This document shows positions 30,576-61,522 of a stretch of 64,000 bases of DNA, piece by piece (positions within the stretch are counted from its first letter, which is position 1; every line of letters begins with the position of its first letter). The notes under the pieces are model-generated. The model saw only the letters and a list, made by a program, of their open reading frames with translations. It had not been told where the DNA came from and did no database searches. The stretch comes from an uncultured Planctomycetota bacterium (GTDB taxonomy: Bacteria > Planctomycetota > Brocadiia > CAIUPP01), in the NCBI GenBank assembly GCA_903901045.1, contig CAIUPP010000023.1, positions 124,001 to 188,000 of the forward strand. The letters run 5' to 3'. Both the position numbers and the translations under genes were made by a program.

Positions 30576-31619
30576 TCAGGCGAGCGCCGGAACGCACGTG
30601 CGAACCAGTCGCCGCGCCGACTCCACGTCGGTCAGCCCCTGGATGATGACGCGTCCGTCCTGGAATATGGCGAGTTGCGCCTCAGGCAGGGTCAGGTGGA
30701 TCAGGTAGTCATTGTACTCCACCTTCCCCATCTGCCGCAATGAACAGGCCAGCGCGGCCAGGTCCAGCTTCACCGGGCGCGCGGGGTTCAACTCCAATTG
30801 GCTGCGGCCGCGCACGAAGGCCGCTTCGCGCGGGGGCGCATCGAGGTAATCGAACCGCTTCAGCGCGCAGGCGGGGCAGTCCGCGCGGCGCTTGACGACG
30901 CTCCGGTTGAACTCCAGCGTCCAGACGTCGAGCCGCAGCAGCCCGGGATTCGGCTCGCCGGCGCCGGTCAGCAGCTTGATCACTTCGTTGCTCTGGATGG
31001 CGCTGACGATGCCGGTGAGCGTGTTCAGCACTCCGGCTTCGTTGCAGCTTCTGAGCGCCTGCGGGTCGGGCAGTTCCTCCAGCACGCAGCGCAGGCAGGG
31101 GCTTCGTCCGGGAAGCACCGTCATGGTCATTCCCGACGACGCGAGCGCGCCGCCGTAGACCCAGGGCGCCCCCGCCTTCACGCAGGCGTCGTTGATGAGG
31201 AAACGCGCCTCCATGTTGTCCGTGCCGTCTGCGACGACGTTCGCCCCTTCGATCAATTGGAGAATGTTCCCCGGCGAGATTTCCGTGACGACGCTTTCCA
31301 CCTGGATTTCCGAGTTGATCCGGCGGATGCGCTCGGCGGCGGCGACGGCTTTCGGCAGGCGACGGCGGACGTCCTCCTCCTCGAACAGCACCTGGCGAGC
31401 CAGGTTGCTCATTTCGAGGACGTCGCGGTCGACGATGCGCAGGCGTCCCACGCCCGCGCGCCCCAGGTTCTGGACGATCCCGCTCCCCAGCGCTCCGCAG
31501 CCGAGGATGACTACGAAGCCGTTGCGCAGCCGCTCCTGGCCGGCGGGACCGATCGGCGCAAAACGCATTTGGCGGCTGTATCGCTCATTGTCAGGCACTT
31601 TCTGTCCTTGCCGTCCCAT
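30576..31619 (-). CDS. ThiF/MoeB/HesA-family adenylyltransferase
   Basis: 347 residues. E1-like enzyme that adenylates the C-terminal Gly of a ubiquitin-like sulfur carrier. Motifs: RYSRQM start, nucleotide loop LGCGALGSGI (about 40), NLARQVLF (about 72), ADGTDNMEARF (about 131), and zinc Cys pairs CLRCV (about 175) and CPAC (about 247). About 80 residues beyond the catalytic domain form an unusual C-terminal extension. No sulfur-carrier gene is adjacent. The start directly abuts the isochorismatase stop (TAGATG). Confidence 0.88.
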   Translation of the reverse strand: MGRQGQKVPDNERYSRQMRFAPIGPAGQERLRNGFVVILGCGALGSGIVQNLGRAGVGRLRIVDRDVLEMSNLARQVLFEEEDVRRRLPKAVAAAERIRRINSEIQVESVVTEISPGNILQLIEGANVVADGTDNMEARFLINDACVKAGAPWVYGGALASSGMTMTVLPGRSPCLRCVLEELPDPQALRSCNEAGVLNTLTGIVSAIQSNEVIKLLTGAGEPNPGLLRLDVWTLEFNRSVVKRRADCPACALKRFDYLDAPPREAAFVRGRSQLELNPARPVKLDLAALACSLRQMGKVEYNDYLIHLTLPEAQLAIFQDGRVIIQGLTDVESARRLVRTCVPALA

Positions 31620-32905: not shown

Positions 32906-35536
32906 TCACCGCACGTTCATGAGGGTGATGTCGTAAGTCCCCGTGAGCGCCGCCGCCCCCTTGCCATAGCTCGCCGTGATGGTGCAGGGCTGGTCGGAGC
33001 GCACGGCCTTGGCGGTCAGTTGCCCGGTCTTGTCGAGCTTGGCATATTGCGAACTCGCCTTCCACGTCACCGACGCCGTCACTTCGGCGGGCGAGCCGAA
33101 ATCGTAGTGCGCAAAGCAACGGTATTGCGCCGAGGCCCCCTCATTTACCTGCCTGGGGCCTGTTATTTCGAGCGAGGTGGGAACTCCGATGGAAAACGAG
33201 TAGTCGCTGTAATCCTCTACGCCATAATATATTGCGTTGATCCGGATGCGGTAGCCATCGCCGGAGGGGTAGGCCGTCTGCGTCTTCGGGTCGAAATCTC
33301 CCACGCGCCACTGCCAGGTGCCCAGGTTCGGGATAGAGGGGGCAAGCACCCAATGCGCCCCCTGCGCGTTCCAGAGTTCGATCTTCATGCGGATTTGGCT
33401 GGACATGCTGCTCTTCCACTGAATCACATAGGTCCGGCCCCACTCCACCCCGATGCCATTCGCGGAAGGATACTGCAGTTGCATGTCGCCATAAACAGCC
33501 GTCAGCGACGTGGAGGCATTGACGGTGAGACTGATTGTCGGCGCCCGGGAGAGCGCCACCCCCGCATCATCCACCCACCGCTGGAAGTAACGACTTCCCG
33601 CCGTCGCCGGCGCCGTCAGCGTGACAACCGCGCCGGCGCCCACGTTCCGTTCATAATTTGTAGTCCCGCCATGGCCGGTCGTGGACGATATCGGGATGCC
33701 GGCGATGGGCTGAGAGTTCACGGCGAGAGTCCACGTTTCAATCGCGTACTCCGCCGTGAGTGCGACGTCGACGTTCATGGAAAACGATACCGTGCGCCCG
33801 CCGTCGGAGACCTCTGCCCCCTCGGGCACGCCTGACCATTGAACGAAGTGATAATCCGTCTCCCCCACGCTCTTGCCCACCGGCGCCGTCAACTCGACTG
33901 TCTCATTGTCATTCAAAGTCTTCTCATAATCCGTAGTGCCGCCATGTCCCGTAGTGGAGGAGATTTCCACCCCGGTGAACGGGGAAGACTTCACGTCGAG
34001 CGTCCATGTGTCAATTGCATATTCCGACGTCACCGTCAGGTTGGACTGAATCGCGAAACTGATCGTGCGGTTGTCATCAGTGAAAACGGTATCGTCCGGA
34101 GTCCCGTTCCACTGCAAAAAGTGGTAATCCGCGCTCCCGTCGCTCGCAGTTGGCAACGCCGTCAAGGTCACCATCGTGTTGCCGGTCGCCGCCTTCCGGT
34201 AGTCGGTTGTCCCGCCGTGCCCGGTTGCCGAAGCGATAGCCACCCCCGTAACCGGCGTTGACTGCACATTGAGCGTCCACGTTCTCGCCACGATGAGGCT
34301 ATGGTCGGAACCGGCAGCAATGTGCACAACCGGAGAGGGCCCGGAGACTTTGGTAAACCTGGCGCTACCTGTGGTATCGCCCATTCCAAGCTGACCATCA
34401 AGGCTGCTCCCCGTCGCCCAGAGCGAACCGTCGCTGGCAAGCGCCAGTGAGTGTCTTTCTCCTGCGGCGATGGCAGTGACTACCTTGCCGGCAAGACCAT
34501 CGCTGACCTGAGTGAAGCTGCTATTCGTGACGCCGCCATCCAGTCCGAGCTGACTGCTGGAGTTGTCCCCCGCCCCCCAGAGGGTGCCGTCGCTGCACAA
34601 CGCAAAAGAGAACCATTTGCCGGTCGTTATGGCAACGACCGTCTTGTCGGCGATATCGCCACCGACCTGGGTAAATCTATGGCGGTCGGCGGTATCACCC
34701 AAACCGAGCTGGCCGCAGGCATTGTACCCCGTTGCCCAGAGAGCGCCGTCGTCGGTCAGCGCCAGAGAGTGCCATTGTCCCGCGGCAATAGCGGTGACAG
34801 TCTTGCCGGTCAGGTATCCATCCACGGGGGTGAAACTATGCCGCTCGGTGGTATCGCCTAGGCCGAGTTCGCCCCACGCATTGTCTCCCGCCGCCCACAG
34901 CGTGCCATCGCTGGCCAAGGCCAGGGAGTGATAGTCCTTCCCCGCAATTGCGACAATCCTCTTGTCGGCAAGATCGCCGCGAACCTGGGTGAACCAACGT
35001 CGCTCGTTCGTGCCGTTGAGGCCGAGTTCGCCGGAGAAGTTATAGCCCGTCGCCCAGAGTCTGCCGTCGCTGGTCAGGGCCAGAGAGTGCCGGTAGCCAC
35101 CCGCGACAGCCGTGACGCTGAGGCCGGCGAGTCCGCCCTCGACTTGGCTGAAGATAGTGCGGTAGCAAGTATCGCCGAAACCGAGTTGGCCATGACTGCT
35201 GGCCCCCGTCGCCCATAGTGTGCCGTCATCGGCAAGGGCCATGGAGCAATTCCGTCCCCCGACGACGGCGGAGATGTTCCTGTCGGCGGGACCGCCGACG
35301 ATTTGGGTAAACGCTCTGCGTTGGGTGGTATCACCCACGCCCAGTTCGCCATTGACGTTCGCCCCCGTCGTCCAGACCGTCATCTCCGCCGAGCCTTGGC
35401 CTTCTGTTGGATCGTTGAACACCTGCGCCGCGCGGAGGTCGCCCGAGAACGGTATTGCCGAAAGGCAGCCGATAAGCGCGAGAAGCCAGGTGTAGTTGGC
35501 AAGGTGACGGAAGTTGATGGTATGCAGGTTAGGCAT
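32906..35536 (-). CDS. Exported RCC1-repeat and InlB-B-like repeat protein
   Basis: 876 residues. N-terminal signal peptide (hydrophobic core WLLALIGCLSAIPF, about 17-30). About seven RCC1 beta-propeller repeats of about 52 residues (HSLALxxDGxLWATGxNxxGQLGLGDT), about 60-410. Then three repeats of about 85 residues starting WTLNVQSTPVTGV with GHGGTTDY, like divergent InlB-B repeats (about 415-665). Next a Kre9/Knh1-like segment (about 670-775) and a C-terminal bacterial Ig-like domain. No sortase or other sorting signal seen. Probably secreted or surface adhesion-type. The ATG at 35536 has GGGGAG 9 bases upstream. Confidence 0.88.
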   Translation of the reverse strand: MPNLHTINFRHLANYTWLLALIGCLSAIPFSGDLRAAQVFNDPTEGQGSAEMTVWTTGANVNGELGVGDTTQRRAFTQIVGGPADRNISAVVGGRNCSMALADDGTLWATGASSHGQLGFGDTCYRTIFSQVEGGLAGLSVTAVAGGYRHSLALTSDGRLWATGYNFSGELGLNGTNERRWFTQVRGDLADKRIVAIAGKDYHSLALASDGTLWAAGDNAWGELGLGDTTERHSFTPVDGYLTGKTVTAIAAGQWHSLALTDDGALWATGYNACGQLGLGDTADRHRFTQVGGDIADKTVVAITTGKWFSFALCSDGTLWGAGDNSSSQLGLDGGVTNSSFTQVSDGLAGKVVTAIAAGERHSLALASDGSLWATGSSLDGQLGMGDTTGSARFTKVSGPSPVVHIAAGSDHSLIVARTWTLNVQSTPVTGVAIASATGHGGTTDYRKAATGNTMVTLTALPTASDGSADYHFLQWNGTPDDTVFTDDNRTISFAIQSNLTVTSEYAIDTWTLDVKSSPFTGVEISSTTGHGGTTDYEKTLNDNETVELTAPVGKSVGETDYHFVQWSGVPEGAEVSDGGRTVSFSMNVDVALTAEYAIETWTLAVNSQPIAGIPISSTTGHGGTTNYERNVGAGAVVTLTAPATAGSRYFQRWVDDAGVALSRAPTISLTVNASTSLTAVYGDMQLQYPSANGIGVEWGRTYVIQWKSSMSSQIRMKIELWNAQGAHWVLAPSIPNLGTWQWRVGDFDPKTQTAYPSGDGYRIRINAIYYGVEDYSDYSFSIGVPTSLEITGPRQVNEGASAQYRCFAHYDFGSPAEVTASVTWKASSQYAKLDKTGQLTAKAVRSDQPCTITASYGKGAAALTGTYDITLMNVR

Positions 35537-35629
35537 AGCAGGTGACTCCCCCATTAGCGCTTGTGTCGCATGTGTACACGGAGCGCGGAATGCGACTGCA
35601 CTGTGCTGTTGCACCATGCAGCAACCTGC

Positions 35630-35732: not shown

Positions 35733-37427
35733 CTACTTCGGCGGCGGCGATGAGGGGGCGATCTTGGGGGCGAGGCCGGCGCCGGGCAGAGTCAGTTCGT
35801 TCTCTTTGCCCTTGGGCACGTTCACGATGGCGCGCAGCGTGGGGATCAATTCCGGGGGGAACCCCGTCTCCCCGCGCAGGATCGCCAGCACCACTTCGCG
35901 CTGGATGTACGGGAAGGGGTCCAGCCCGTCATTGCGCGTGCGGCCGGTCGCGTTGGCGATTCCGTACTGGCGGTACGCTTCCCATCCACGCTGCGCCAGG
36001 TCTTCGTAGGTGGCCGCCTCGTCGCGCTTGTTCACGCAGAGGAAGAAGCACTCCTGCGCGATGCAACCGTCCACCCAGGCGCGCACTTTCGCGTGCGTCC
36101 CGTTCTCGTCCACCAGGTTCAGGACGAACCCCAGGACATATTCTTCCAGCGGGACGCGCGGATTGGGCTTGTCGTAGAGCGTGTTGAGTTCCTGGTAGTA
36201 CTTCGCTGATTCGTCGTGATACCCCGCGAAGTACATGTCGAACGTGGCTTCCTGCAGGAAGGTGATGTGCCCATCCTGCACGGAGGATGCGCCGTACGCC
36301 TCCGCCGCGATGGAGTACTTCGTGAGCATCATTTCGTACAGTTTGTTAATGGGGACCACTTTGCTCAGGTCGAACGCGGTGACCATGGCCTTCTGCGGGT
36401 CTCCGCCCATGTAGGCGATGACGCCACGGCGCATGGTCTCCTGGAGGCTGGCCAGAAGAATACGGTCGTAGTCGATCTCTTTGCGCGTCGGATTGGCCAG
36501 CATGTTCTCACGCGCGCGCTCGACCCAGTAGATCGCGTGGGGCTCCGGCAGCCGCCAGTCGAATTTGCCGTAGTCCTGCTCCATCTTGACCATGATGTCG
36601 AAGCGGTCCATCTTGTATCGGTCGCGCAGGACGCGCGCTGCGACGTAGTTGGCGATCTTCCGCAGCGCCTTGGTGCTCTTGGCCTTGATGATGGCGTTGC
36701 CGATCGACTCCGGGATTTCGTGGAGGCCGTTCACCTTGTCGAGCTGCTTGAGGGTCTCGTCGGGCGGCACCAGGGTGAACGCGGGCGACAGGGCGGCTTT
36801 CACGTCCGGGTCGGCCAGCAGTTCCTTCAGCGTCCAGCGCGACGCCTCCTGGATGCCGGGGATGTCCTGCTGCTCGCGGCTGCCGACTATGTCGTGCATG
36901 ATCAGCGCCCAGCGATGCTTGTAGTACGCGTTGTGCAGGTCGAGGTCGCGCCCGATTTTGTGGTAGTAAATCCAAGCGATGCGGTCCATGATGAGGCCGG
37001 ATTTCGGGTTGTAGTAGAGTCCGTCGTTCCGGAGCCAGTCCAGCGCGCGCTGAATCCACTGCCAGCGGGCCTCGCTGTCGGGCAGTTCGGCGACGAGGTT
37101 GTACGCCATGTTCCAGCCGTTGAAGTCCCAGATTTCTTCGATGCTGGGTTCGAGTTTGCCCATCCAGTCGTAGAGCTGGTAGAGCTCCCAGAACTTCTCT
37201 TCCTGCTGCAGGCGGCTGGCGCGCAGCCAGACGGCGTCGATCAGAAGCCCGCGGAAGCCTCCCAGCACGTGGGTGAGCAGGACGATCTCGGGGGGCTGAT
37301 TCCTGGCGCTGACGCTGAACTGCCCCAGGATGGAGCGATACGCGTCCACGAAGGTCAGCGTGGCCGACGCCCCCGCCATCATGGCGACGATCAGCACGAT
37401 CAGGACAATTTTCTTAAAGGTTGCCAT
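35733..37427 (-). CDS. Membrane-anchored conserved protein of the SPFH/ABC locus
   Basis: 564 residues. One N-terminal transmembrane helix (about 7-25), then a large mostly helical extracytoplasmic part. The segment GGFRGLLIDAVWLRASRLQ ... ELYQLYDWMGKLEP ... FNGWNMAYNL ... RWQWIQRALDWLRNDGL ... WIYYHKIGRDL matches a protein type I recall from planctomycetes and relatives, where it accompanies transport genes; tetratricopeptide-like helical pairs are likely. Function unknown. Last gene of the eight-gene block, 9 bases after the permease stop. Confidence 0.75.
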   Translation of the reverse strand: MATFKKIVLIVLIVAMMAGASATLTFVDAYRSILGQFSVSARNQPPEIVLLTHVLGGFRGLLIDAVWLRASRLQQEEKFWELYQLYDWMGKLEPSIEEIWDFNGWNMAYNLVAELPDSEARWQWIQRALDWLRNDGLYYNPKSGLIMDRIAWIYYHKIGRDLDLHNAYYKHRWALIMHDIVGSREQQDIPGIQEASRWTLKELLADPDVKAALSPAFTLVPPDETLKQLDKVNGLHEIPESIGNAIIKAKSTKALRKIANYVAARVLRDRYKMDRFDIMVKMEQDYGKFDWRLPEPHAIYWVERARENMLANPTRKEIDYDRILLASLQETMRRGVIAYMGGDPQKAMVTAFDLSKVVPINKLYEMMLTKYSIAAEAYGASSVQDGHITFLQEATFDMYFAGYHDESAKYYQELNTLYDKPNPRVPLEEYVLGFVLNLVDENGTHAKVRAWVDGCIAQECFFLCVNKRDEAATYEDLAQRGWEAYRQYGIANATGRTRNDGLDPFPYIQREVVLAILRGETGFPPELIPTLRAIVNVPKGKENELTLPGAGLAPKIAPSSPPPK

Positions 37428-37436
37428 CGTCCGCTC

Positions 37437-38999
37437 TCATGTATTGGCCGTCAATGCGGCCAACTCCCTGCGCCGGAAGATCACCCAGCCGGCTACCGCG
37501 GCAATCCCGCCGCGCACGAGGATCACTTCCAGGAACATTCGAAGTATGACGCCGAAGTCGATGATGCGGCCGTCCGTCAGGAACGGCGTGGCATCGTATG
37601 CGCCCAGGTTCGGGAACAGGCTGAAGAAGGACATGAGTATCCAGCGCAGCGCCGTGTCGCCGGGATGCAGCGGCTGCCAGGGCGGCACCATGCTGCTGCC
37701 GAACACGAACAGGTTGGAGATCAGGTCGGTCTGAATGAAGCCGGCCATCTGCGACACCATGAAGACCACGAGGCTGGCGGTGACCGCCACCGGGAAGGAC
37801 AGGAAGGTGGAGAAGGCCAGGCCGATGATGGCGTAGAACGTCAGTTTCATCAGCAACAAGCTGCCGGCGCGCACGAAGTTCCATCCCAGGCTGGTGGCAC
37901 CGTACATGACCGTCACGCCGTCGCCGAACGGGAACATCGCCGAGACATCCGACGTGTCCATGTTCGTATAGGTGATCTTGATCGTGCCATCCGGCCCGGC
38001 GAGGCGCGCGGGAACGGCAAAGGTGTGGGGCCGATTGACCAGGAAGCCTTCCTCGATCCACACGTTTTCCGTTCCGGCCTCATTGACCACGAACCGGCCC
38101 GGAATTTCATGATCGGTCGAGCCGCTGCTACCGAAATGGCGGAAGCGGATCACCAGCCACTCCATGTTGTTCTTCGCGGAGGGGGGCGGCTCCTCTTTCG
38201 CCACCGGCGCGGCGACCCGCCTGGGCGCGGCAGTCGTTTTGGTGGTGATCATCGTCAAGGTGGTGGTGGTCGAGGTGCTGGTCGTCGTGGTGGTGGTTGT
38301 GGTGGTGGTCGCCCCCGCGACGACATTGTACTTGGGGAGGCCTGATACCACCCAAGTCACCTGCGTGTTGGGGGCAACGACCCAAGCCCCCTTCTTCAAC
38401 CGCTCGGCAATCTGCATGCGGTTCCAGGCTTCGCTCTTGCCTTCCGGCAGCAAGTTCTTCTCTTTCAGGTACTTATACTCATCGTCCACTTCTTTGCTCA
38501 GGTCGGGCATCGGCGGTGTGGCATAGCTGCGCGCGTTGAGGACTTCCGCCTTGAAAAGTTCATAAGATTCCGGCGGCTCCCCAGGAAGCCTCTGGCTCAG
38601 ATACCTGACGCAGCCGTAAGTCAGCCCGAGCATGACGGCCAGCAGCAGCACGTTGATCAGCATGACCCCCGCCCACTTGCCCAGCAGGAGGGTGAGGCGG
38701 GCCAGCGGCTTGGTGTCCAGCAGGAAGATCTGCTGCTGCTTGATTTCGGTGTTCAGAGTGATCGCGGAGAGGAAGATGGTGAGCACGCTCAGGAGGAGGA
38801 GGGAGATGGCATAGATGGAGTACGTCATGACCATGCGCACCTGCCCGGCGTGGGTTCTATCGGCCTGAAGCAGGAAGGGCAAGGCGGGAATCAGCACGAG
38901 CAGGAAGGCCAGCAGCACCAGCACCACCTTCATCCGCAACGCCTGAAGAATGGAGTGGCGCGCAATGGTCCAAATCTGCTTGAGCAAGTCGATCATCAC
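37437..38999 (-). CDS. ABC-2-type permease with a threonine-rich extracytoplasmic loop
   Basis: 520 residues. One transmembrane helix near the N-terminus (about 22-42), pairs near 55-80 and 105-125, then a large hydrophilic region about 130-320, and a C-terminal group of about five helices (about 340-510), matching an ABC-2/YhaP-like half transporter. The loop contains a low-complexity Thr tract (about 228-255), encoded at 38239-38310 by near-tandem ACC/ACG codons. It overlaps the ATPase stop by 4 bases (ATGA), so the two are translationally coupled. Confidence 0.82.
   Translation of the reverse strand: MMIDLLKQIWTIARHSILQALRMKVVLVLLAFLLVLIPALPFLLQADRTHAGQVRMVMTYSIYAISLLLLSVLTIFLSAITLNTEIKQQQIFLLDTKPLARLTLLLGKWAGVMLINVLLLAVMLGLTYGCVRYLSQRLPGEPPESYELFKAEVLNARSYATPPMPDLSKEVDDEYKYLKEKNLLPEGKSEAWNRMQIAERLKKGAWVVAPNTQVTWVVSGLPKYNVVAGATTTTTTTTTTSTSTTTTLTMITTKTTAAPRRVAAPVAKEEPPPSAKNNMEWLVIRFRHFGSSGSTDHEIPGRFVVNEAGTENVWIEEGFLVNRPHTFAVPARLAGPDGTIKITYTNMDTSDVSAMFPFGDGVTVMYGATSLGWNFVRAGSLLLMKLTFYAIIGLAFSTFLSFPVAVTASLVVFMVSQMAGFIQTDLISNLFVFGSSMVPPWQPLHPGDTALRWILMSFFSLFPNLGAYDATPFLTDGRIIDFGVILRMFLEVILVRGGIAAVAGWVIFRRRELAALTANT
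38239..38310 (-). repeat. Threonine-codon microsatellite in the permease gene
   Basis: GGT/CGT-type triplets on the plus strand translate to long Thr runs with a few Ser, Leu, Met and Lys. Such tracts can change length by slippage in steps of three bases. Confidence 0.75.
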
Positions 39000-40285
39000 T
39001 TATCGCTCCGGCCGTCCGTCCGCGCATCCTTCCGGTCGGCTTCGCTCTTCGGGGACAGAAGGCCGCGCAGCACTTCGTCGGTGGCCGGCTTGGCCGGCCC
39101 CGCGCCTCCCGCAGGCAGAACCACCGGCTGGTCCTTCTGCGGCTCCTTCTTCGCCTCGGATTCCGGGACAGGCGCGGCGAGTTGAGCGGAGGGGCGCACC
39201 AGGTCGCTCAAGAGCTTCTGGTCCACCGCAGGCTCCGTCGGCTTTCCGGCCGGCAGCACAAACGATTCCTCCGGCCCCTCGGTCTGCTCGACCGGGACGG
39301 TCACGGGAACTGCCTTGAGGAGCGACTGCATCAGGTCGTCGGCCTTGTCTTCGCGCTCGATGCCGCCAAAGAACGCGGCGGCGCCTGTGCCGGCGGTGAC
39401 GCCGGAGGTGGTCAGGTGAGCGGCGCGCGCTTCCTCCACCACTTTCAGGAAGAAGCTCTCGAGCCGTTCGCGCGGGGCCTGAACTTCAACGCCCGCTTCC
39501 GGCCCTTCCATCTCCTGGATCAGGTTCACGACGGCGGAGATCGTCTGCTGCTTGAGGTTGCGCGTCGTAATCTGTGTCTTGGACTGCACTTCCAGCAGCG
39601 TGTTGATGTTCCCGACCCGGCGGACGCGTCCGCCGTAAAGGATCGCCACGCGGTCGCATACGTCCTCGACGTCGGCGAGCAGGTGGCTGCAGAGGAACAC
39701 GGTCTTGCCGCGGCTCTTCAATTCGAGGATGAGGTCCTTGATCTCGCGCGTGCCGGTGGGGTCCAGCCCCGTGGTCGGCTCGTCGAGGAAGAGGAAGTCC
39801 GGGTCGTTGATGAGCGCCTGCGCCAGCCCGATGCGCCGCGCCATGCCCTTGGAGTACTCCACGAGGGGCCGCTTGCGCTGCTGCGCGAGCCCCACCATGT
39901 CCAGGAGCAGGTTGACGCGGTTGCGACGTTCGTGCCGCGGCAGGTTGAAGAGGCGGCCGTAGAACTCCAGGGTCTCCTCGGCATTGAGGTACCGGTAGAG
40001 GTAGGAGTCCTCCGGCATGTAGCCGATGCGGTCCTTGATGGCGATGTTGCGCGGGTCGCGGCCGAACACGGCGGCCCGTCCGCTGGTCGGAAAGAGCAGA
40101 CCCAGCAGAATCTTGATGAGGGTGGATTTGCCGGAGCCGTTCGGTCCGAGCAGGCCGAACACTTCGCCCCGGACGACCTGCAGGTCCACCCGGTCCAGCG
40201 CGCGCACTTTCTGGCGCATCCAGAAGTCGCGGTAAATCTTGGTGAGCTGAACCGTCTCAACAACCACTTGGCGTTCTACTGCCAC
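38996..40285 (-). CDS. ABC transporter ATP-binding protein with C-terminal extension
   Basis: 429 residues. Walker A GPNGSGKST (about 49), signature EYSKGMARR (about 144, a variant of LSGGQ-type), Walker B FLFLDEPTTGLDP (about 165) and the switch His in LCSHLLADVED (about 205). ATP hydrolysis drives the adjacent permeases. The catalytic domain ends near 310; about 120 residues of Pro/Glu/Lys-rich extension follow, unusual for ABC-2 ATPases. GTG start. Confidence 0.93.
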   Translation of the reverse strand: MAVERQVVVETVQLTKIYRDFWMRQKVRALDRVDLQVVRGEVFGLLGPNGSGKSTLIKILLGLLFPTSGRAAVFGRDPRNIAIKDRIGYMPEDSYLYRYLNAEETLEFYGRLFNLPRHERRNRVNLLLDMVGLAQQRKRPLVEYSKGMARRIGLAQALINDPDFLFLDEPTTGLDPTGTREIKDLILELKSRGKTVFLCSHLLADVEDVCDRVAILYGGRVRRVGNINTLLEVQSKTQITTRNLKQQTISAVVNLIQEMEGPEAGVEVQAPRERLESFFLKVVEEARAAHLTTSGVTAGTGAAAFFGGIEREDKADDLMQSLLKAVPVTVPVEQTEGPEESFVLPAGKPTEPAVDQKLLSDLVRPSAQLAAPVPESEAKKEPQKDQPVVLPAGGAGPAKPATDEVLRGLLSPKSEADRKDARTDGRSDK

Positions 40286-40300
40286 GCCTGGATCTCCTCA

Positions 40301-42238
40301 CTACTGTTGCTGGCCGCTGGTATGCGGCGCGATCTCTTCACCGAAACGCACAAGACGGGCGCTGTTGAAAATGACGATGAACGACCCGACGATGTGAAGG
40401 AACGCGGCGGTGATCGGGGTGAGAATCGCCTCGGTGCTCAAGGCAAGGCCGACGATGATGAACACGAGGGCGAACAACAGGTTCTGGTTGACGATGGTGC
40501 GCGTGCGGCGCGACAGACGGATGAGGAAGGGCAAGCGCCCGAGGTCGTTGGACATCAAGGCGATGCTCGCGGAGTGAATGGCGATGTCGCTGCCGGCGGC
40601 GCCCATGGCGATGCCCATGTCGCCCGCGGCGAGGGCCGGGGCGTCGTTGACACCATCCCCCACCACCGCCACGTGCATCCCGGCGTCCTTGAGCTTGTGG
40701 ACCAGTTCCAGCTTGCGGGCCGGCAGGCACTCGGCTTCCACTTCGGTGCAGCCCAGTTCCGCGGCCACGCGGCGCGCGACCGACCAGCGGTCGCCCGTGA
40801 ACATGGTCAGCCGGCGAATGCCCAGTTTGCGCAGTTCGGCAGTGGCTTTCTTGGCTTCGGGACGCGCCTTGTCCTCCAGGCCGATCCAGCCGATGGCCTT
40901 GCCATTCTCGGCGATGTAGAGCACGCTGAAGCCCACCATCTCATCGAGGTCCACTCCCAAACCGGCGAAGTTGACGCCGCATTCCTTGAGCCAGGTTTCG
41001 CGCCCGACCAGTACTTTGGCGCCCCCCACGTTCGAGCGGACTCCCTTGCCCGCCTCTTCGTGGATGTCGGTCGCATCGCCCCAGGCGAGTCCGGCTTCCT
41101 TGGCGACCCGCACGACGGCCTGGGCGACGGGGTGGTTGCTGTGCGCTTCCGTCGCGGCGGCCAACTGGAGCATGTGCGCCGGGTCCACGCCCGTCGCCGG
41201 GGCCAGCCGGGTCACGGCCAACTGCCCGGTGGTCAGCGTGCCGGTCTTGTCGAAAGCGATGGCGTTCAAACGGCCCGCCGCTTCGAGGTCTCCCACATCC
41301 TTGACGAGGATTCCGAGCCGCGCGGCGCTGCTGAGCGCAGCCACCATCGCGGTGGGAGTCGCCAGGACGAAGGCGCACGGGCACGTCACGATCAACGCGG
41401 TGATCGCTCTGCCCATGTCTTTCGTGAAGAACAGGATGAAGAACACGATCATCATGACCACGGGGGTATACCAGAGGATATACCGGTCAATGATGCGCAT
41501 GAGCGGAATCTTGGTCTTTTCGGCGTCCAGAATCAGGTGGCGCACCTGACCCAGCGTGGTATCTTCGCCCACGCGGGTGACGCGCACTTCCAGCGAGCCG
41601 GTGAGGTTCACGGCGCCGGCAAACACCTGGTCGCCCACCCCTTTGTCCACCGGCAGCGATTCGCCGGTGATGCTCGCCTCGTTCATCGTGGAGGCGCCGG
41701 TGACGATGTCGCCGTCCGCCGGAATGGTCTCGCCCGGACGGATGCGGACGCTTTCGCCGGTCTTCAGTTCCGAGGCATCGACGTCCCGCGTGCCGCCACC
41801 GGGCAGAAGCAGGTGCGCGCGCGTGGGGGCCATGCGGATCAGGCTTTCGATCGCCTGCCGCGCGCCCAGCGCCGTGCGGTGCTGGATCAGGTCGGCCAGG
41901 AGCATCAGGAAGCTGACCACGCCGGCTTCCTGGTACTTCCCGATGGCGATGCATCCCATGACCGCGATGGCCACCAGCTCGATCATGTGGCGCTCGCCGA
42001 CGATCAGGTCGGAGATGGCCCGCACGACGATGGGGATGCCCAGCAGCAACGCTCCGACGAGCGCGCAGGCCATTTCGATGCCGCGCGGATCGTCGAACAG
42101 GTACGGGGCGAGGTAGGAGTTGATGACGAGGGCCCCACCCAGGAAGGAACCGATCAAGGAGAGCGCGACGATCTGCTGCTCCCTCTCGGAGGTCAGGTGG
42201 TGTTCCTCAGGCACCATGTGCCCGGTCGGTATGCTCAT
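40301..42238 (-). CDS. Metal-translocating P1B-type ATPase (CPC)
   Basis: 645 residues. Heavy-metal P-type ATPase: TGESLPV-type actuator motif (SITGESLPVDKG, about 190), membrane motif CPCAFVLATPTA (about 290, metal site), phosphorylation site DKTGTLT (about 331), a His-Pro locus NHPVAQAV (about 370), and GDGVNDAPALAAGDMGIAMG (about 550). There is no N-terminal metal-binding HMA domain; the N-terminus is a short His-containing stretch. CPC ATPases export Cu+, Zn2+ or Cd2+; which metal is unclear. ATG at 42238 with AGGAG 9 bases upstream is preferred over TTG at 42244. Confidence 0.93.
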   Translation of the reverse strand: MSIPTGHMVPEEHHLTSEREQQIVALSLIGSFLGGALVINSYLAPYLFDDPRGIEMACALVGALLLGIPIVVRAISDLIVGERHMIELVAIAVMGCIAIGKYQEAGVVSFLMLLADLIQHRTALGARQAIESLIRMAPTRAHLLLPGGGTRDVDASELKTGESVRIRPGETIPADGDIVTGASTMNEASITGESLPVDKGVGDQVFAGAVNLTGSLEVRVTRVGEDTTLGQVRHLILDAEKTKIPLMRIIDRYILWYTPVVMMIVFFILFFTKDMGRAITALIVTCPCAFVLATPTAMVAALSSAARLGILVKDVGDLEAAGRLNAIAFDKTGTLTTGQLAVTRLAPATGVDPAHMLQLAAATEAHSNHPVAQAVVRVAKEAGLAWGDATDIHEEAGKGVRSNVGGAKVLVGRETWLKECGVNFAGLGVDLDEMVGFSVLYIAENGKAIGWIGLEDKARPEAKKATAELRKLGIRRLTMFTGDRWSVARRVAAELGCTEVEAECLPARKLELVHKLKDAGMHVAVVGDGVNDAPALAAGDMGIAMGAAGSDIAIHSASIALMSNDLGRLPFLIRLSRRTRTIVNQNLLFALVFIIVGLALSTEAILTPITAAFLHIVGSFIVIFNSARLVRFGEEIAPHTSGQQQ

Positions 42239-42267
42239 GAACAAAGTCTCCTATGCAAGGCCTTCGC

Positions 42268-43542
42268 TTACCTGGACAGCGGAATTATCGTTTCCTGACG
42301 GCGAATCTCGGTGCGGCGGTTCAGCCAGATTTCCAGTTCCGAATGTTCCTGCTGGTTCGGATTGTAGATGAACTTCTCATAGCAGTTGCTCAACACGTCC
42401 TGGATCGCCTCGATGCGCATTTCCTCCAGGAACACCTTCAGGCTTGCGGCGTCTCCTTCGCCGTTATGGGCGACGAGCTTGGCGATGCTGGCGCTGTCGG
42501 CGCTGGCCTCGCTGACCACCGTGGTGCGGTAGGTTTTGGCTTCGGCGGTGATGCTGGCCACCTCGCCCTTGGCGTCGACCAGCAGCTTGCTGATCTCCGC
42601 TTCGGAGGCGCGAACGCCGGCGGCGTCCGATTTGGCATAAGCCGCCCAGCGCGCTTCGATCTCATGGCCGAGTTTCAGCCCCACTTCGCCGGCCGCGTCA
42701 ATGAGCATCTTGTTTCCGGCGCGTTCCGCTTCCTTCATCCCCGTCTCAGCCGCCTGGTTCGCGCTCAGCACGCTGTCGAACGCCGCCTTCACGTTTTCCG
42801 GCGGGCGGATGGTGATGAAGTTCACGCGCTGCACTTCCAAGCCGAGGTTCAGCGAGCGCACCATATCCTGCACGTAGGACTGGACGCTCTCCCCCAGCGC
42901 GACGGTGCCGTGGGGATAGACGTCGTTGACCGCTTTGTGGCTGAACTTGACGATCACGGCGTTCTGGACCAGGCCGCGGATCAGGCGCTCTTCATTCGCC
43001 TGGTCGCCGACGTTCTGGTAATAGCTGACGATGTCGTCGGGACTGGCATCGGTGCCGCCCCGGATGCTGTAGGTCACCTGCAACCGGCCCTGCATGAGGT
43101 TCATATCGCCGGTGAGCACCACGCCATTATCCGCGCCATCGAAGAATTCCTGCTCGGGCGCGCCCTTCTTGACGGCTTCTTCCTTGGTCTCGGTGGTCAT
43201 CTTGGGCCAGAAGATGTTGACGTCCATCGTCTTGGTCCGCACCCAGACCGGAATGACCTTGTCGATCGGATACGGCAGGGCATAGTGGACGCCCTGGTCC
43301 TTCACCAGCCCCCGGTCGGCGCGGCCGAAGCGCTCGATGATGACCTTCTGGTCGGATTGGACGGTGAAGAAACCCCGGCTGACGAAGAGCACAACCAGCA
43401 CGAGCATGACCAGCGTCAGCACGCGGAAACTCATGTGCAGGGCGTTGGTCAGCGACTGGCTGGCCGCGTCGAAGGCCGGCTCGGCGACCTGCGGCCGTTT
43501 TTCGGCGTCGTTTTCAGGCGGAACTTTTTGTTCTTCAGACAC
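42268..43542 (-). CDS. SPFH/Band-7 protein, HflK-like
   Basis: 424 residues. A charged N-terminus of about 40 residues, one transmembrane helix (about 42-60), an SPFH domain starting FFTVQSDQKVIIERFGRADR and a long coiled-coil helical region (about 255-370) rich in Ala/Glu. Resembles HflK, whose HflKC complex forms a cage around FtsH and organises membrane domains. The order here (P-type ATPase, HflK-like, HflC-like, large HflK-like) differs from the usual hflX-hflK-hflC. GTG start, with GGAGG 9 bases upstream. Confidence 0.88.
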   Translation of the reverse strand: MSEEQKVPPENDAEKRPQVAEPAFDAASQSLTNALHMSFRVLTLVMLVLVVLFVSRGFFTVQSDQKVIIERFGRADRGLVKDQGVHYALPYPIDKVIPVWVRTKTMDVNIFWPKMTTETKEEAVKKGAPEQEFFDGADNGVVLTGDMNLMQGRLQVTYSIRGGTDASPDDIVSYYQNVGDQANEERLIRGLVQNAVIVKFSHKAVNDVYPHGTVALGESVQSYVQDMVRSLNLGLEVQRVNFITIRPPENVKAAFDSVLSANQAAETGMKEAERAGNKMLIDAAGEVGLKLGHEIEARWAAYAKSDAAGVRASEAEISKLLVDAKGEVASITAEAKTYRTTVVSEASADSASIAKLVAHNGEGDAASLKVFLEEMRIEAIQDVLSNCYEKFIYNPNQQEHSELEIWLNRRTEIRRQETIIPLSR

Positions 43543-43588
43543 GAGTTAAATCCTCCGTCTGTTTCTCAAGAGCCTGTCAGGCTCGGAA

Positions 43589-44515
43589 TCAGTTCTTGTT
43601 CCCGGGCGTCGTCGCAGCGGTCGGAATTTCCTGGACAAAGACGTCGACCGGCGGCATGGTGACATCCAGGACGAAGGTGGTCTTTTCCTTGAGCATCGCG
43701 CGCATGGCGCGCAGCTTGCGCAGGTAGACCTCCAGCTCCGGATACTTGGCGAACACCTGGTAGTACTGCTTGGCCTGCGCGTCTCCCTCGCCCTTGATCT
43801 TCTCAGCTTCGCTGCGGGCCAGGGCCAGGATCTGCTTGCTTTCCGACTCCGCGCGGGTGCGGACTTCGCTGGCCTGCGCCTTGCCGGCCGACTCGATGTC
43901 CCCCGCTTCCTTGTTGCGCTCGGCGATCATGCTCTGATAGACCTGGCCGGCCACGCTTTCGGGCAGTTCCAGGCGCTTGATCTTGACCAGCTCGACCTTC
44001 ATTCCGAAGGTCTCCATCGCTTCGGCGCTGGCTTTCGCCGCAATCGCGTTCTCAATCTCGCTGTACTGCGGCTCCTTGGCGATCGACACGAGGTCCTGCA
44101 ACTGGTGCGTGCCCATCACGGCTTCGGCGGAGTGCTGGATGATCGGCTGCAGCGCGCTCCAGGCCGCCTTGGCGCGATCCTCTTCCTTGTCGCGTCCGAA
44201 GTTCTTGTTGAACGTCAGCACGTTGTCAATGCGCCACCCCACCAGCAGCGAGGCGATGACGTTGAAGCCGTCGCCGGTGCGCGTTTCCTTGAACCGGCCA
44301 TCCTCAGCGAACAGGCGATTCTCGAAAATCCGCACTTCCTGGATGGGCCAGGGCGCCTTGAAATGGTACCCGGCCTGGGCCGGCTTGTCGGCCGGATTGC
44401 CGAACGTCAGCACGAGCCCCACCTTGCTGCTGGGGACGGTGAAGGCGAACATGTACATCAGCAGGCTCACTGCGATGATGACCGCCACAACGACCGTAAA
44501 GGCATGCTTGCTCAT
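43589..44515 (-). CDS. SPFH/Band-7 protein, HflC-like
   Basis: 308 residues. N-terminal transmembrane helix (about 6-27), SPFH domain with VPSSKVGLVLTFGNP ... GYHFKAPWPIQEVRIFENRLF, then a coiled coil including ERNKEAGDIESAGKAQASEVR (HflC-like) and a Pro-rich end. Like HflC, it should pair with an HflK-type partner; two candidates flank it. ATG with AAGGAG upstream. Confidence 0.9.
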   Translation of the reverse strand: MSKHAFTVVVAVIIAVSLLMYMFAFTVPSSKVGLVLTFGNPADKPAQAGYHFKAPWPIQEVRIFENRLFAEDGRFKETRTGDGFNVIASLLVGWRIDNVLTFNKNFGRDKEEDRAKAAWSALQPIIQHSAEAVMGTHQLQDLVSIAKEPQYSEIENAIAAKASAEAMETFGMKVELVKIKRLELPESVAGQVYQSMIAERNKEAGDIESAGKAQASEVRTRAESESKQILALARSEAEKIKGEGDAQAKQYYQVFAKYPELEVYLRKLRAMRAMLKEKTTFVLDVTMPPVDVFVQEIPTAATTPGNKN

Positions 44516-44531
44516 TCAGTCACTCTCCTTA

Positions 44532-46436
44532 CTATTTCTTCGGGCTGGATTCGCCGGTTTCAACCTTCTGGAAATCACCGAGGGATTCGATGCTGGTGCG
44601 CAGCGGGTCTTCGAGGTTCAAGCGCAGATGCTCGCGGTCCAACTTGCGGACCGCCAGGACGTACTTGCGCACGTCGGTCAGGCCGTCCTGCAGGGCGCTC
44701 ATGAATTCGCGCATCTTGAAGACGTCGCCGGCCAGGGCATACAACTGAGCCTGGGCCTCGAAACGCTTGGCCGCCCCTTCGATCCCGGCGATCCGGTCGG
44801 TGTAATAGGTCTGGGCTTCATACTTGGCGGCAGCGGCGTCGCCCTGGACGGCATTCATGACCCGCTTGGCTTCCGCCTGGGCATTGAGCATGTCGATCTG
44901 GTTCTGCGTGACGGCGGTGATCAGCCCATGGAACGCCTTGGGCACGCCGCCATCGCCGACCGGGGGATGGACTTCTTCCAGCCCGACGCCCAGCACGACG
45001 GCGCCCAGCGGCTCCAGTTCCTTGTTCATGTTGGCCTTGAGGTCTTCGGCCGCAGCCATGCGCTTGGGACCCATCAACTGGAAGATGTCCCGGTGAGCGA
45101 AGTACATGTTGACTTCGCGGTTCGCGATGGCATCCACCAGCTTGTCCGGATCCACGCTCTCGTAGTACCACTTGTGGACGTCGCTGATCTTGTAGCGGAC
45201 CGTGGCGGAGGCGACCAGCAGGTTCACCACCGGCACGTCCCTCTTGCGCAGCCCGCTCTGGGTCGCGCCGACCATGACGTCGAATTCCTTCTCATAGTGT
45301 TTGAGCGTCCAGACGTCCTTCTCATTCTCTCCCACCGTGCGCGCGCCGGAGTGCCCCAGGGAGATGATCTCCACCTTGTTGGCGGTGAAGCGGTAGACGT
45401 TCTCCACCGGCCAGGGCCACTTCACGCACAGCCCCGGCGGCTCGGTGCTGACATACTTGCCGAAGCGCTCGCGCACGCCCTGCTGCTCCGGCCCGATGAT
45501 CACGAAACAGCTCAGGCCGTACAGGGTGAGCAATTGGAAGAGGAGCAGCGGAGCGATGGCCTGCTCCAGGAAGCGGTAGAACCAAGTCTGCGACACGCGG
45601 AAGCCGAACTGGTAGTCCAGCGTGGCCGCGATGGTTTTGAATACGCCGCCCGGCTGCGACAACAGTCCCAGCAGGCGGCTGTCATAGGCCGGACGGGCTT
45701 CCACGCCGCCGACGCGCGGACGGTAGAAGTCCAGGATGAAGTTCAGCAGGTTTTCCAGCAGGACGATGCTCAGCAGGCCCAGCGAACAGTAGGCCAGGAT
45801 GCGGTCCGGGTTCTCGTACTTGAAGGAGCCGGCGAAGCAGGCGACGACGGTCGCCACGCTCAGCAGGGTACTGAGCATGAGGTAGCTGCCGACGGCGCGC
45901 ATGGGACGCCAGGCTTCCTGGCGCGACATGCCGGCGGCGTACATCGCCATCAGGAAGAGGACGAATCCCATGGCGAAGAAGAACGCGATGCTGATGAACG
46001 CCTTGTCGGCGACGACGGCGGAACTGGCGATCGTATCGAGTTCCACCATTCCCACGACGACACCGGCCAGCGCCAGCACCATGACCAGGCTGAAGATCGG
46101 GCCGATGTATCTTTCCAGGATGCGCAGCCGGTTGCGGGCCGCGAACGCCTGGATCTCATCCTCTTCGAACAACGAGCCGCGCGCACCTCCGGCTTCGCGT
46201 TCGGCCTTCAGGCGATCCCACTCCTCCTGCTCGGCCTCCGCCAGCCGGTTGAGCCGCAGGCTCAGCAGCGCCATCAGCGCCACGGGCGCTCCGATCAACG
46301 CGGCCCACCCCAGCACTTTCGCCGTCGCCGCGCCGGAGTAATACCCGAACCACAGGGCAAGCGCGGCGGCCAGCAATTGCACAATCAGTCCGGCGATGGC
46401 TGCAAGTTCCGCCGGCTTTCGATCAAGCCTTGCCAC
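44532..46436 (-). CDS. Large polytopic SPFH protein, HflK-like
   Basis: 634 residues. Unlike classical HflK, it begins with about 300 residues containing six or seven transmembrane helices (for example near 12-32, 43-60, 113-133, 145-170, 182-205, 213-240), one more helix near 298-318, then an SPFH domain from VIIGPEQQGVRERFGKYVS and a coiled coil (QAEAKRVMNAVQGDAAAAKYEA). The membrane half probably anchors the microdomain. GTG start. It is 16 bases from the HflC-like gene. Confidence 0.85.
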   Translation of the reverse strand: MARLDRKPAELAAIAGLIVQLLAAALALWFGYYSGAATAKVLGWAALIGAPVALMALLSLRLNRLAEAEQEEWDRLKAEREAGGARGSLFEEDEIQAFAARNRLRILERYIGPIFSLVMVLALAGVVVGMVELDTIASSAVVADKAFISIAFFFAMGFVLFLMAMYAAGMSRQEAWRPMRAVGSYLMLSTLLSVATVVACFAGSFKYENPDRILAYCSLGLLSIVLLENLLNFILDFYRPRVGGVEARPAYDSRLLGLLSQPGGVFKTIAATLDYQFGFRVSQTWFYRFLEQAIAPLLLFQLLTLYGLSCFVIIGPEQQGVRERFGKYVSTEPPGLCVKWPWPVENVYRFTANKVEIISLGHSGARTVGENEKDVWTLKHYEKEFDVMVGATQSGLRKRDVPVVNLLVASATVRYKISDVHKWYYESVDPDKLVDAIANREVNMYFAHRDIFQLMGPKRMAAAEDLKANMNKELEPLGAVVLGVGLEEVHPPVGDGGVPKAFHGLITAVTQNQIDMLNAQAEAKRVMNAVQGDAAAAKYEAQTYYTDRIAGIEGAAKRFEAQAQLYALAGDVFKMREFMSALQDGLTDVRKYVLAVRKLDREHLRLNLEDPLRTSIESLGDFQKVETGESSPKK

Positions 46437-46487
46437 TTCACCCTCCTCCTCTTCGTTCAGCCCAGCGTGCTTCAGGACAACTTACAC

Positions 46488-47513
46488 TCAGGCCACTTCC
46501 CGGTCCTGGAACAGGAACATCGCCAGGAACAACAGGCCTGCCAGAATAAAAGCGCAATACAACCCGCTGCTGGCCACCAGGATGGGCGGCACTTTGCGTC
46601 CCTGCGTCAGCGAGTCGCTCACCCAGAACACCTGCAGGTTCGGCACGATCCGGTACATGACCCGCGCCACGAGCATGTCGCGGTCGCGGAACAGGTAGTC
46701 GGACAGCAGCCCGAGCACAAAGACGCCCGAGCAGAGCGTTACGTTCACCACGACCGTCAGGCGCGTGGAGGCGGCGACCGCCACCCCCGCCAGCACCAGA
46801 ATCGCCCAGAGCGTCATCAGGCAACCGCCGATCAACTGAAGGTTGACCCCGGCGCCAAACGGCCCGAACTTGAACTCGCGCGGGTTCACAAAGCAGAAGA
46901 TGATGAACAATAATGTGAACAGCGGGATCAGCATCCCGATCGCGCGGCTGGTGAACTGTTTGTCGTTGAAAAAGTTGCTGTAGATACCGTACGCAACGGA
47001 GACGAACATCGCGCCGAACAGCGCCAGGGCGACCGGCAGGCAGATGTCCTGGCCGTACTCCGCCTCCATCGCGCCGCTGCTGGAAGTCAGCACCAGCGTC
47101 AGAGACATGAGGTAAGTCGCCACCGCCAGCCCCGCGAGGACTCCCAGGAACTTGCCCAGGATGAACTCCCCTCGCCCCACCGGCTTGGCGATGACGGTCA
47201 GCACGGTGCGGTTGTCCAGCTCTTCGGAGATTACGCTGGAAGCCGTGAAGGCCGCCAGAAGCAATCCGGCCAGCATCGTCGTGGCCAATCCCATGTCCAC
47301 AATCAGGCGCGGCGACTGCTGCAGGGCGAACATGGTGATATACGGACTGATGAGGATCAGCACTACTGCCAGGCCGAGAACCACGCCGTAGACCGGCTGG
47401 CGTATGCTTTCCACAAAGGTGTTCGCCGCGACGGCGTAGACCTTGGCGATAAAGTAAAGCAGGGCTGATGGACGCTCAGTTGTCGCACTGACCCTGTATC
47501 GGTTGCCGCTCAT
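46488..47513 (-). CDS. ABC-2-type transport permease
   Basis: 341 residues with about six to seven transmembrane helices (about 45-65, 80-105, 125-150, 170-190, 205-225, 240-265, 315-335). It shows the ABC-2 pattern of a permease that keeps an EELDNRTVLTVIAKPVGRGEFILGK cytoplasmic loop, found in NosY/GldA-type permeases. First gene of the eight-gene block; the promoter lies about 165 bases upstream. Confidence 0.85.
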   Translation of the reverse strand: MSGNRYRVSATTERPSALLYFIAKVYAVAANTFVESIRQPVYGVVLGLAVVLILISPYITMFALQQSPRLIVDMGLATTMLAGLLLAAFTASSVISEELDNRTVLTVIAKPVGRGEFILGKFLGVLAGLAVATYLMSLTLVLTSSSGAMEAEYGQDICLPVALALFGAMFVSVAYGIYSNFFNDKQFTSRAIGMLIPLFTLLFIIFCFVNPREFKFGPFGAGVNLQLIGGCLMTLWAILVLAGVAVAASTRLTVVVNVTLCSGVFVLGLLSDYLFRDRDMLVARVMYRIVPNLQVFWVSDSLTQGRKVPPILVASSGLYCAFILAGLLFLAMFLFQDREVA

Positions 47514-47683: not shown

Positions 47684-47711
47684 ATACTACCACAACGCCG
47701 GGAAAATGCAA
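47684..47711 (-). promoter_or_regulatory. Probable promoter for the eight-gene SPFH/ABC/ATPase block
   Basis: On the minus strand TTGCAT (47706-47711), 16 bp, TAGTAT (47684-47689). The leader to 47513 is about 165 bases and contains the imperfect self-complementary CGCGCGATCAGCGCG. The rest of 47514-47861 holds no gene that I can see. Confidence 0.5.
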
Positions 47712-51693: not shown

Positions 51694-52551
51694 TTACCAG
51701 CGTCCGGAAGCTCCGCCGCCGCCGAATGAGCCTCCGCCTCCGCTAAACGAGCTTCCGCCTCCGCCCCAACCGGAGCCGCCGGATGACGAGCCGCCTCTGC
51801 CGGAGGACCAACTGCCGCTGTTTCCCGAGCCGATCCCGGCGAGCAATTCATTGGAAACCATTCCCACCAGGAAGCCGATGATTCCGGAAAGAATGGCGAT
51901 GGGCAGCGTGTAGATCCAACTGGCCAGGAGGAAGGTTCCCAGGCCGCCGGCAATTCCCCCGAACAGCCGCTTGATTCCGCAAAGCACCACCGAGACGATA
52001 AAGACGAAGAACAACAGGAACAAGCCGATCATCATCTTGCCGGCCGCCGCATCTTCCCCGGCTCCATCGCCCTCATTCCCTTTATACTCTCCCTTGACCG
52101 CCAGGAAGATCTGATCCAGGCCGTTGTCCAGCCCGCGATAGTAATTCCCCTCCTTGAAACTCGGGGTAATGTCCTCGCGGATTATTCTGCCGCACCGCCC
52201 ATCCGGAAGAACTCCTTCGAAGCCATAGCCTGTTTCCAGCCGGATCTGTCGGTCGTTCTTCACGACCAGAATCAGCAGACCGTTGTCTTTGCCTCTTTGT
52301 CCGCCTTTCCACTTCTCGCAAATCTTGAGCGAGAACTGCTCAAGAGCGTTCCCTTCCAGAGAGTTGATCATCACAATCGCAATCTGGTCGGAAGATTCCC
52401 GCTCGTGATTCTGGAGCTTGGCTTCCAGTTGGCTGATTTCCTGGCTTGACAGCGTCTGGGTCAAGTCCGTCACGCGCCTCGTGATGTCGGGAACGTCCAG
52501 CGCATAGGACGAGGCGGCCAGCAGGAGAACCATCAGCAGTGCTTTTCTCAT
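51694..52551 (-). CDS. YgcG-like TPM protein with Gly/Ser-rich tail
   Basis: 285 residues. Signal peptide (about 1-17), TPM domain (about 20-150: QIAIVMINSLEG ... KDNGLLILVVKNDRQIRLETGYGFEGVLPDG), two transmembrane helices (about 177-195 and 207-228) and a Gly/Ser-rich tail (GSWSSGRGGSSSGG ... SGRW). Same architecture as E. coli YgcG-type proteins, which are coupled to LemA. Middle gene of the operon. Confidence 0.9.
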   Translation of the reverse strand: MRKALLMVLLLAASSYALDVPDITRRVTDLTQTLSSQEISQLEAKLQNHERESSDQIAIVMINSLEGNALEQFSLKICEKWKGGQRGKDNGLLILVVKNDRQIRLETGYGFEGVLPDGRCGRIIREDITPSFKEGNYYRGLDNGLDQIFLAVKGEYKGNEGDGAGEDAAAGKMMIGLFLLFFVFIVSVVLCGIKRLFGGIAGGLGTFLLASWIYTLPIAILSGIIGFLVGMVSNELLAGIGSGNSGSWSSGRGGSSSGGSGWGGGGSSFSGGGGSFGGGGASGRW

Positions 52552-52615
52552 TGCGCCTCCCTGGAAAGAGAAGAGGAGACAAGAAGCGACTGGTCTTCTC
52601 TCCCTGATTCCAGCC

Positions 52616-53224: not shown

Positions 53225-53311
53225 GTTTGCCACTCCTGATATTGGGGGACGCGCAACCTGGTTCCATAGCCCGGTCTTGGATGAAGACTCGCGCCCACTC
53301 GCCATGCGATG

Positions 53312-58438: not shown

Positions 58439-58457
58439 CGGACGGAGAATAATTTCC

Positions 58458-61502: not shown

Positions 61503-61522
61503 GCGCCAGGAAAGGAATATCC

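Follow-up and report, generated by a model that had tools for sequence, protein, structure and literature searches.

An SPFH trio and a P1B-type ATPase beside an ABC-2 exporter in a conserved eight-gene locus: a candidate periplasmic cage for metal transport

SPFH domains of the HflK/HflC type are periplasmic and assemble into domes. Here we describe a locus in which three proteins with such domains are encoded together with a P1B-type ATPase and the parts of an ABC exporter. It consists of eight open reading frames, A to H, running on the minus strand from position 47513 to 35733 of a 64,000-nucleotide stretch (hereafter the window) of contig CAIUPP010000023.1, from an uncultured Planctomycetota bacterium. 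Among the closest described systems are the HflK/HflC cages around FtsH, which are established in Escherichia coli (PMC12048511), and the hmtA region of Pseudomonas aeruginosa. In the latter, zinc depletion raised expression of PA2439-PA2437 9.0-14.4 fold and of hmtA 5.6 fold, with a weak Zur site (PMC4542158); a proteomic study gives the same direction of induction (PMC11761036), and N-acetylcysteine, as zinc chelator, likewise induces the trio (PMC9431628). Apart from this hmtA-linked trio, P. aeruginosa possesses a canonical HflK/C (PMC13086221). A classification of SPFH proteins of prokaryotes from 2009 contains no mention of ATPases or transporters (PMC2636767), and in the 2026 survey that named the trio PaFlo5-6-7 the word ATPase stands nowhere in the text (PMC13086221). 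Two papers mention SPFH proteins together with CDF and one together with ArsP; in one of these papers the families appear as separate list entries.

The window locus has the order HflK-HflC-SPFH-P1B ATPase of the hmtA-type cassette, i.e., like PA2439-PA2438-PA2437-(PA2436)-PA2435/hmtA-PA2434 it places HflK-, HflC- and HflC-family genes before a P1B ATPase. It differs in that no ABC-2 exporter, gene H or CDF-like half is described for Pseudomonas in the available parts of these reports. Matches to HflK/HflC chains of the PDB cover the SPFH domain and the C-terminal region; in contrast to E. coli there are three SPFH genes rather than two, the locus is without FtsH, and the scores stay under the equivalog cut-offs. 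The locus is composed of two modules, B-C-D-E (SPFH trio and P1B-type ATPase) and A-F-G-H (ABC-2 exporter and H). We give a little better than an even chance to the reading that it makes an HflK/C-like periplasmic cage, which organises a Zn/Cu-type pump and is coupled to the ABC exporter; in this reading the assembly of the cage, its physical link to the exporter, the identity of the metal and the way it moves, and the exporter substrate are inferred. New here are the CDF origin of one half of B, the fusions of transporters with HflK-type proteins, and a tail of F that tracks the SPFH genes. Domains were assigned by Pfam and NCBIfam searches with the model cut-offs, and the features of the first module are as follows.

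44532-46436, minus strand: gene B, predicted CDF-derived six-helix membrane half and HflK-like SPFH half, 634 residues, Band_7 over cut-off
45708-46436, minus strand: CDF-like membrane region of B, residues 1-243, from VIA-align to YiiP 8f6k and hhalign to CDFs
44958-45500, minus strand: SPFH (Band_7) domain of B, residues 313-493, Pfam PF01145 E 4.6e-13
43589-44515, minus strand: gene C, HflC-like SPFH protein, 308 residues, TIGR01932 129.8 bits against a cut-off of 134.4
42268-43542, minus strand: gene D, second HflK-like SPFH protein, 424 residues, TIGR01933 103.6 bits against a cut-off of 159.4, Band_7 over cut-off
40301-42244, minus strand: gene E, P1B-type ATPase without N-terminal metal-binding domain, 647 residues, TIGR01525 534.6 bits, over cut-off, with DKTGT
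41375-41383, minus strand: CPC motif of E, residues 288-290, variable in orthologues

The membrane half of B was listed in an earlier note on this DNA, made from the letters alone, as an added half of six to seven helices. It is real, has six helices, and was identified as CDF-like in fold. An AF2 model of B, built on a shallow alignment of five sequences, had a mean pLDDT of 44, with about 60-79 in the six helices and poor quality outside the membrane half, and a Foldseek search with it placed CDF zinc transporters on top (probability 1.0, E 0.03). VIA-align superposed the membrane half on YiiP 8f6k with Z 19.2 over 201 residues (root-mean-square deviation 2.8 A), the best non-CDF row reaching 7.5. 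Independently of the model, Pfam Cation_efflux gave sub-threshold matches in four relatives of B, which in three spanned nearly the whole domain (best E 3.7e-4); their PF01545 scores were 12.8-20.8 bits against a cut-off of 26.6, and the window copy gave no match. The membrane profile of B aligned by hhalign to 23 CDF sequences at 94.7% (E 6e-8, 198 columns), covering all six helices, and three control profiles of membrane proteins gave 0.5% or less. Both HxxxD zinc motifs are gone, the one in TM2 being xxxxG and the one in TM5 mostly Yxxx(N/S/G). In the PDB set the profile of B matched E. coli HflK over 153-358. Judged from sequence and model, the membrane half is a degenerate CDF fold without a zinc site; B derives from a CDF but by the customary criteria does not count as a CDF transporter. 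It shares with YiiP and ZnT the fold and the six-helix profile, but the HxxxD site is lost and the SPFH domain replaces the cytosolic CDF C-terminal domain. A previously unexplained membrane half can now be read as a worn-down zinc-transporter fold.

Outside the window, several metal transporters were found in one chain with SPFH domains; these loci, which surfaced as weak matches of the search, provide the strongest evidence. In locus L052 (10937-14014, minus strand) a chain of 1026 residues carries a full P1B ATPase and then an HflK-like SPFH domain, and HflC- and HflK-type genes follow it. An intact CDF, with both HxxxD motifs retained, is fused to an HflK-type SPFH domain in L053, L178 and L183, and a PF03773 permease is fused to one in five loci (L179:1446-3716, L180:4096-6312, L181:2-1885, L184:4158-6119 and L185:7575-10163); the three PF03773 fusions that were tested all score as SO_0444 Cu/Zn efflux transporters (NF033936) above the NCBIfam cut-off. 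Every one of these fusions adjoins an HflC-type gene, with an additional HflK-type gene alongside. Since CDF, P1B and SO_0444 fusions were all found, fusion with HflK-type proteins has involved at least three metal-transporter families that are unrelated to each other. The SO_0444 family resembles the window locus in that its members in relatives are fused to HflK-type SPFH and adjoin HflC; it is another transporter family, and lies outside the locus. A further HflK-type protein of 773 residues (L182:7180-9498), whose N-terminal half is without a Pfam family, is possibly another transporter-SPFH fusion.

The same combinations occur on plasmids. One of Aquibium oceanicum carries genes for a CDF-HflK fusion, HflC, HflK, a peptidylprolyl isomerase, a ZntA-like P1B ATPase, PCu(A)C and SCO. 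The order B-C-D-E was found, with no exporter, on plasmids of Paraburkholderia sprentiae, Burkholderia ubonensis and Rhizobium tumorigenes, and by annotation of Klebsiella aerogenes; the cassette of P. sprentiae adjoins a zinc ABC importer, a GTP-binding protein and PCu(A)C.

Gene E passed the cut-offs of PF00122, PF00702 and TIGR01525 and is, by domains and motifs, a P1B-type heavy-metal ATPase with predicted metal transport. DKTGT was invariant in all aligned copies. The designation as a CPC metal ATPase in the earlier note is right for the window copy and does not extend to all orthologues, a minority of which have CPS, CPG, CPT, CPL, CPV or TPC; because CPC varies where DKTGT does not, the metal site is under differing constraints across lineages. 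The E copies of SPFH cassettes grouped as a single clade, with 50 sequences and a support of 0.93, which takes in the proteobacterial cassette ATPases. Background P1B ATPases, the fused copy in L052 and the ATPases adjoining CDF-HflK fusions (L178 and L188) all fell outside it. The last helix reads D(M/T)GA(S/T) in the L178 and L188 ATPases, and in cassette E the motif is mostly H, often HN.

The second module comprises the remaining four genes.

46488-47513, minus strand: gene A, ABC-2 type permease, 341 residues, PF12679 31.8 bits, over cut-off
38996-40285, minus strand: gene F, ABC ATPase with C-terminal tail, 429 residues, ABC_tran E 1.2e-28
38999-39358, minus strand: C-terminal tail of F, residues about 310-429, tracking SPFH genes
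37437-38999, minus strand: gene G, ABC-2-like permease with large periplasmic insert, 520 residues, PF12679 22.8 bits, below the cut-off of 27.2
38232-38309, minus strand: Thr-rich tract of G, residues about 231-256, not in seven aligned orthologues
35733-37427, minus strand: gene H, N-terminal anchor and helical TPR-like body, 564 residues, no Pfam family in the window copy

Like ABC-2 exporters with DrrA- or GldA-type ATPases, this module has an ATPase (F) and two permeases (A and G). It differs from them in the long tail of F, in H, which is without a known family, and in that no equivalog cut-off was passed among the models shown. ATPase F and permease A are over their cut-offs; of the two ABC-2 permeases claimed earlier, A stands by the ABC2_membrane_2 cut-off and G falls below it, with hydrophobic segments at both its ends. 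H had been called an unknown membrane protein, and a membrane anchor without family assignment is indeed what we found, but it is not polytopic: one strong N-terminal hydrophobic helix is followed by an all-helical body. TPR_6 matched weakly in four of six H relatives (best E 0.002), and a model from two sequences (mean pLDDT 42) said nothing beyond 'all-helical'. Weak PDB matches of H to PUF proteins (E 0.06) were taken as chance.

The long extension of F, remarked on in the earlier note, proved both conserved and informative. F extends past profile position 340 of 409 in 31 of the 32 mapped loci with B, and one further long tail belongs to a locus with B on another contig, which makes 32 of 33 with SPFH genes. 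In the 10 loci mapped with F but without B it ends by position 315, none of them having the tail. The tail is retained in the four loci that lack E nearby. As it tracks the SPFH genes even without E, it is the best candidate for a coupling element; this covariation is descriptive only, the loci being related by descent. Several orthologous tails have two or three short DxxLIxxL-type motifs, which may be multivalent docking sites.

The eight proteins were mapped in the loci of relatives by tblastn and profile HMMs. The nearest genome with a B relative, from the same class, showed 55% identity and most others 36-44%; B relatives were also met in contigs labelled Verrucomicrobia or 'bacterium' (five relatives, single-protein scan). 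All eight genes lie on one contig in 25 sampled genomes, window included, of the window's phylum and Verrucomicrobia. The order A-H on one strand was kept in 14 of them, among them the window; A was divergent in four, and in seven E was retained but placed upstream of a divergent A. Gene order was kept at protein identities as low as about 22% and over many families, which argues for long conservation and not for chance or recent shared ancestry. The earlier note had asked for such a neighbourhood search and named rare co-occurrence in relatives as the outcome that would speak against it; instead, the set recurs across genomes. The similar sets in planctomycete relatives that it mentioned fit, as 16S comparison puts the class in what is probably a Planctomycetota-like phylum; they are not confined there, since full sets occur in Verrucomicrobia and B-C-D-E in Proteobacteria too. 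By 16S the same-class genomes were 73-77% identical to each other and 66-72% to two relatives from the Verrucomicrobia matches, on which ground Verrucomicrobia was rejected as the phylum of the host; a search for the 16S gene of the window's own genome found none. Two same-class genomes had 0-1 mismatches to the probe PLA46, and the Verrucomicrobia-type relatives matched EUB338-III exactly.

The modules are also found apart. A accompanies F-G-H without any SPFH gene in four loci, F-G-H stands alone in five, B-C-D-E occurs without ABC genes in seven, and B-C-D with F-G-H but without nearby E in four (L079, L081, L091 and L099). In the phylum sample of 294 genomes the H profile matched 208 and the B membrane half 65, of which 55 strongly, F-G-H or A-F-G-H being far commoner than the B-bearing set. 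E was present in 52 of the 55 B-bearing genomes and lay within 20 kb of B in 40 of 57 B loci; many of the exceptions had B and E on separate contigs. Fisher tests of B/E and of tail/SPFH co-occurrence are descriptive, as they ignore shared descent. Because each module also occurs on its own, the window locus is best described as a join of two modules that repeatedly meet, and 'one machine' would be a derived state.

This separability is what favours the foremost alternative, that the trio, the metal ATPase and the exporter are co-regulated neighbours sharing an operon under envelope or metal stress without any joint complex; in some B loci, moreover, E is not linked to B or is absent. We consider it rather unlikely all the same, because single-chain fusions of transporters with SPFH and a tail of F that follows the SPFH genes argue for physical links.

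A distinctly improbable alternative is that the trio acts as the HflK/C of the cell and modulates FtsH, with pump and exporter merely protected or supervised clients. B, C and D all pass the Band_7 cut-off, which bears out the count of three SPFH proteins, and they are the only HflK/HflC-type proteins found in the genome, its other two Band_7 proteins being of other types. As the genome has no second set of this type, and an FtsH is present, a role of the kind established in E. coli retains some plausibility. Yet the single FtsH gene is on a different contig, in keeping with the statement of the earlier note that none is in the locus, the partners found in recurrent fusions are metal transporters, and P. 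aeruginosa keeps its canonical HflK/C apart from the hmtA-linked trio.

Less probable again is a metal-loading chamber, in which an exported peptide, protein or cofactor would receive metal from E inside the SPFH dome. Exporter and metal ATPase share a conserved order and the tail of F suggests coupling to SPFH, but the locus showed no gene for a dedicated substrate, and since F-G-H without E is common, metal loading is not the basic job of the exporter. That E and B once transported metal and now carry other cargo or act as structural parts is hardly credible: B has lost both HxxxD motifs and CPC is degenerate in several lineages with DKTGT kept, but most E copies retain CPC together with an HN-type or H-type M8 motif, and the plasmid carriers sit in Zn/Cu gene neighbourhoods.

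In the cage that we favour, B, C and D would assemble as a hetero-oligomeric dome over the periplasmic side of the inner membrane, holding E, and the CDF-derived six-helix domain of B would serve as anchor, dimerisation or docking element. A, F, G and H would make up an ABC-2 exporter of two permeases, an ATPase and the TPR-like H. The tail of F may tie this exporter to the SPFH assembly and so allow exporter and pump to work in one patch of membrane. The probable physiological role is the handling of Zn/Cu-type metals in the envelope, most likely when metal is limiting or out of balance, and the dome would either concentrate metal for uptake or confine exported metal. Cues to the direction conflict: HmtA was reportedly described as an importer (by Lewinson, in 2009), and the CDF and SO_0444 fusion partners come from efflux families.

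Several observations weigh against the cage. None of the trio passes the HflK/HflC equivalog cut-offs of NCBIfam, B with 113.6 bits being under 159.4 like D, and C being under 134.4. B is without a zinc site and the CPC of E is replaced in some orthologues, so metal transport may have been lost in some lineages. The six B-bearing genomes of one family have no E near B, and the tail of F could be a lineage trait, as the loci share descent. Orthology of E with HmtA, and of the locus with the hmtA operon, is presumed from gene order and annotation.

The earlier note had suggested a microdomain-organised export or metal-handling machine. Its link between SPFH and metal is strongly backed by the fusions and by the parallel in PMC4542158, the single machine gives way to two separable modules, and a joint physical function would still be a prediction. 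We hold more tentatively, at somewhat less than an even chance, that SPFH cages of the HflK/C type generally enclose Zn/Cu transporters in the periplasm, CDF, P1B and SO_0444 carriers each having been fused to an HflK-HflC set or housed with one, and that the chamber is wired here to an ABC exporter by a dedicated tail on F; if so, metal would pass through a confined compartment and not through the open periplasm. The evidence suggests that such cages serve metal transport, beyond the proteolytic enzyme for which they are already known. As to roles of HflK/C-like cages beyond FtsH, the fusions and the conserved operon repeatedly point to Zn/Cu-type transporters as a client class, and the zinc-responsive hmtA operon of Pseudomonas could be re-read as a transporter-plus-cage unit.

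As to layout, the eight-gene minus-strand block of the earlier note was recovered at the same coordinates, and the tight spacing it gave (about 60 bases or less, one overlap) was measured as 9 to 51 bases between genes and a 4-base overlap of F and G. The promoter it placed at 47684-47711 did not hold up: TTGCAT/TAGTAT agrees at 7 of 12 positions by eye, and in a promoter scan such sites were no commoner than in shuffled sequence. The Thr tract it noticed in a permease is present in G of the window and absent from all seven aligned orthologues. An Rfam search of the window gave no families, and viral contigs gave no match.

Some neighbours on the minus strand of the window may be mentioned. 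Downstream of the locus and outside the conserved set, 32906-35617 encodes a 903-residue RCC1-repeat protein with InlB-type B-repeats. Four long open reading frames (271, 618, 345 and 676 residues) at 57304-63148 had no Pfam match at E 0.001. At 30576-31619 there is a ThiF-family protein whose C-terminal stretch resembles a TBP domain (E 7e-5, just over the cut-off), and at 51694-53305 a TPM-domain gene adjoins a LemA gene.

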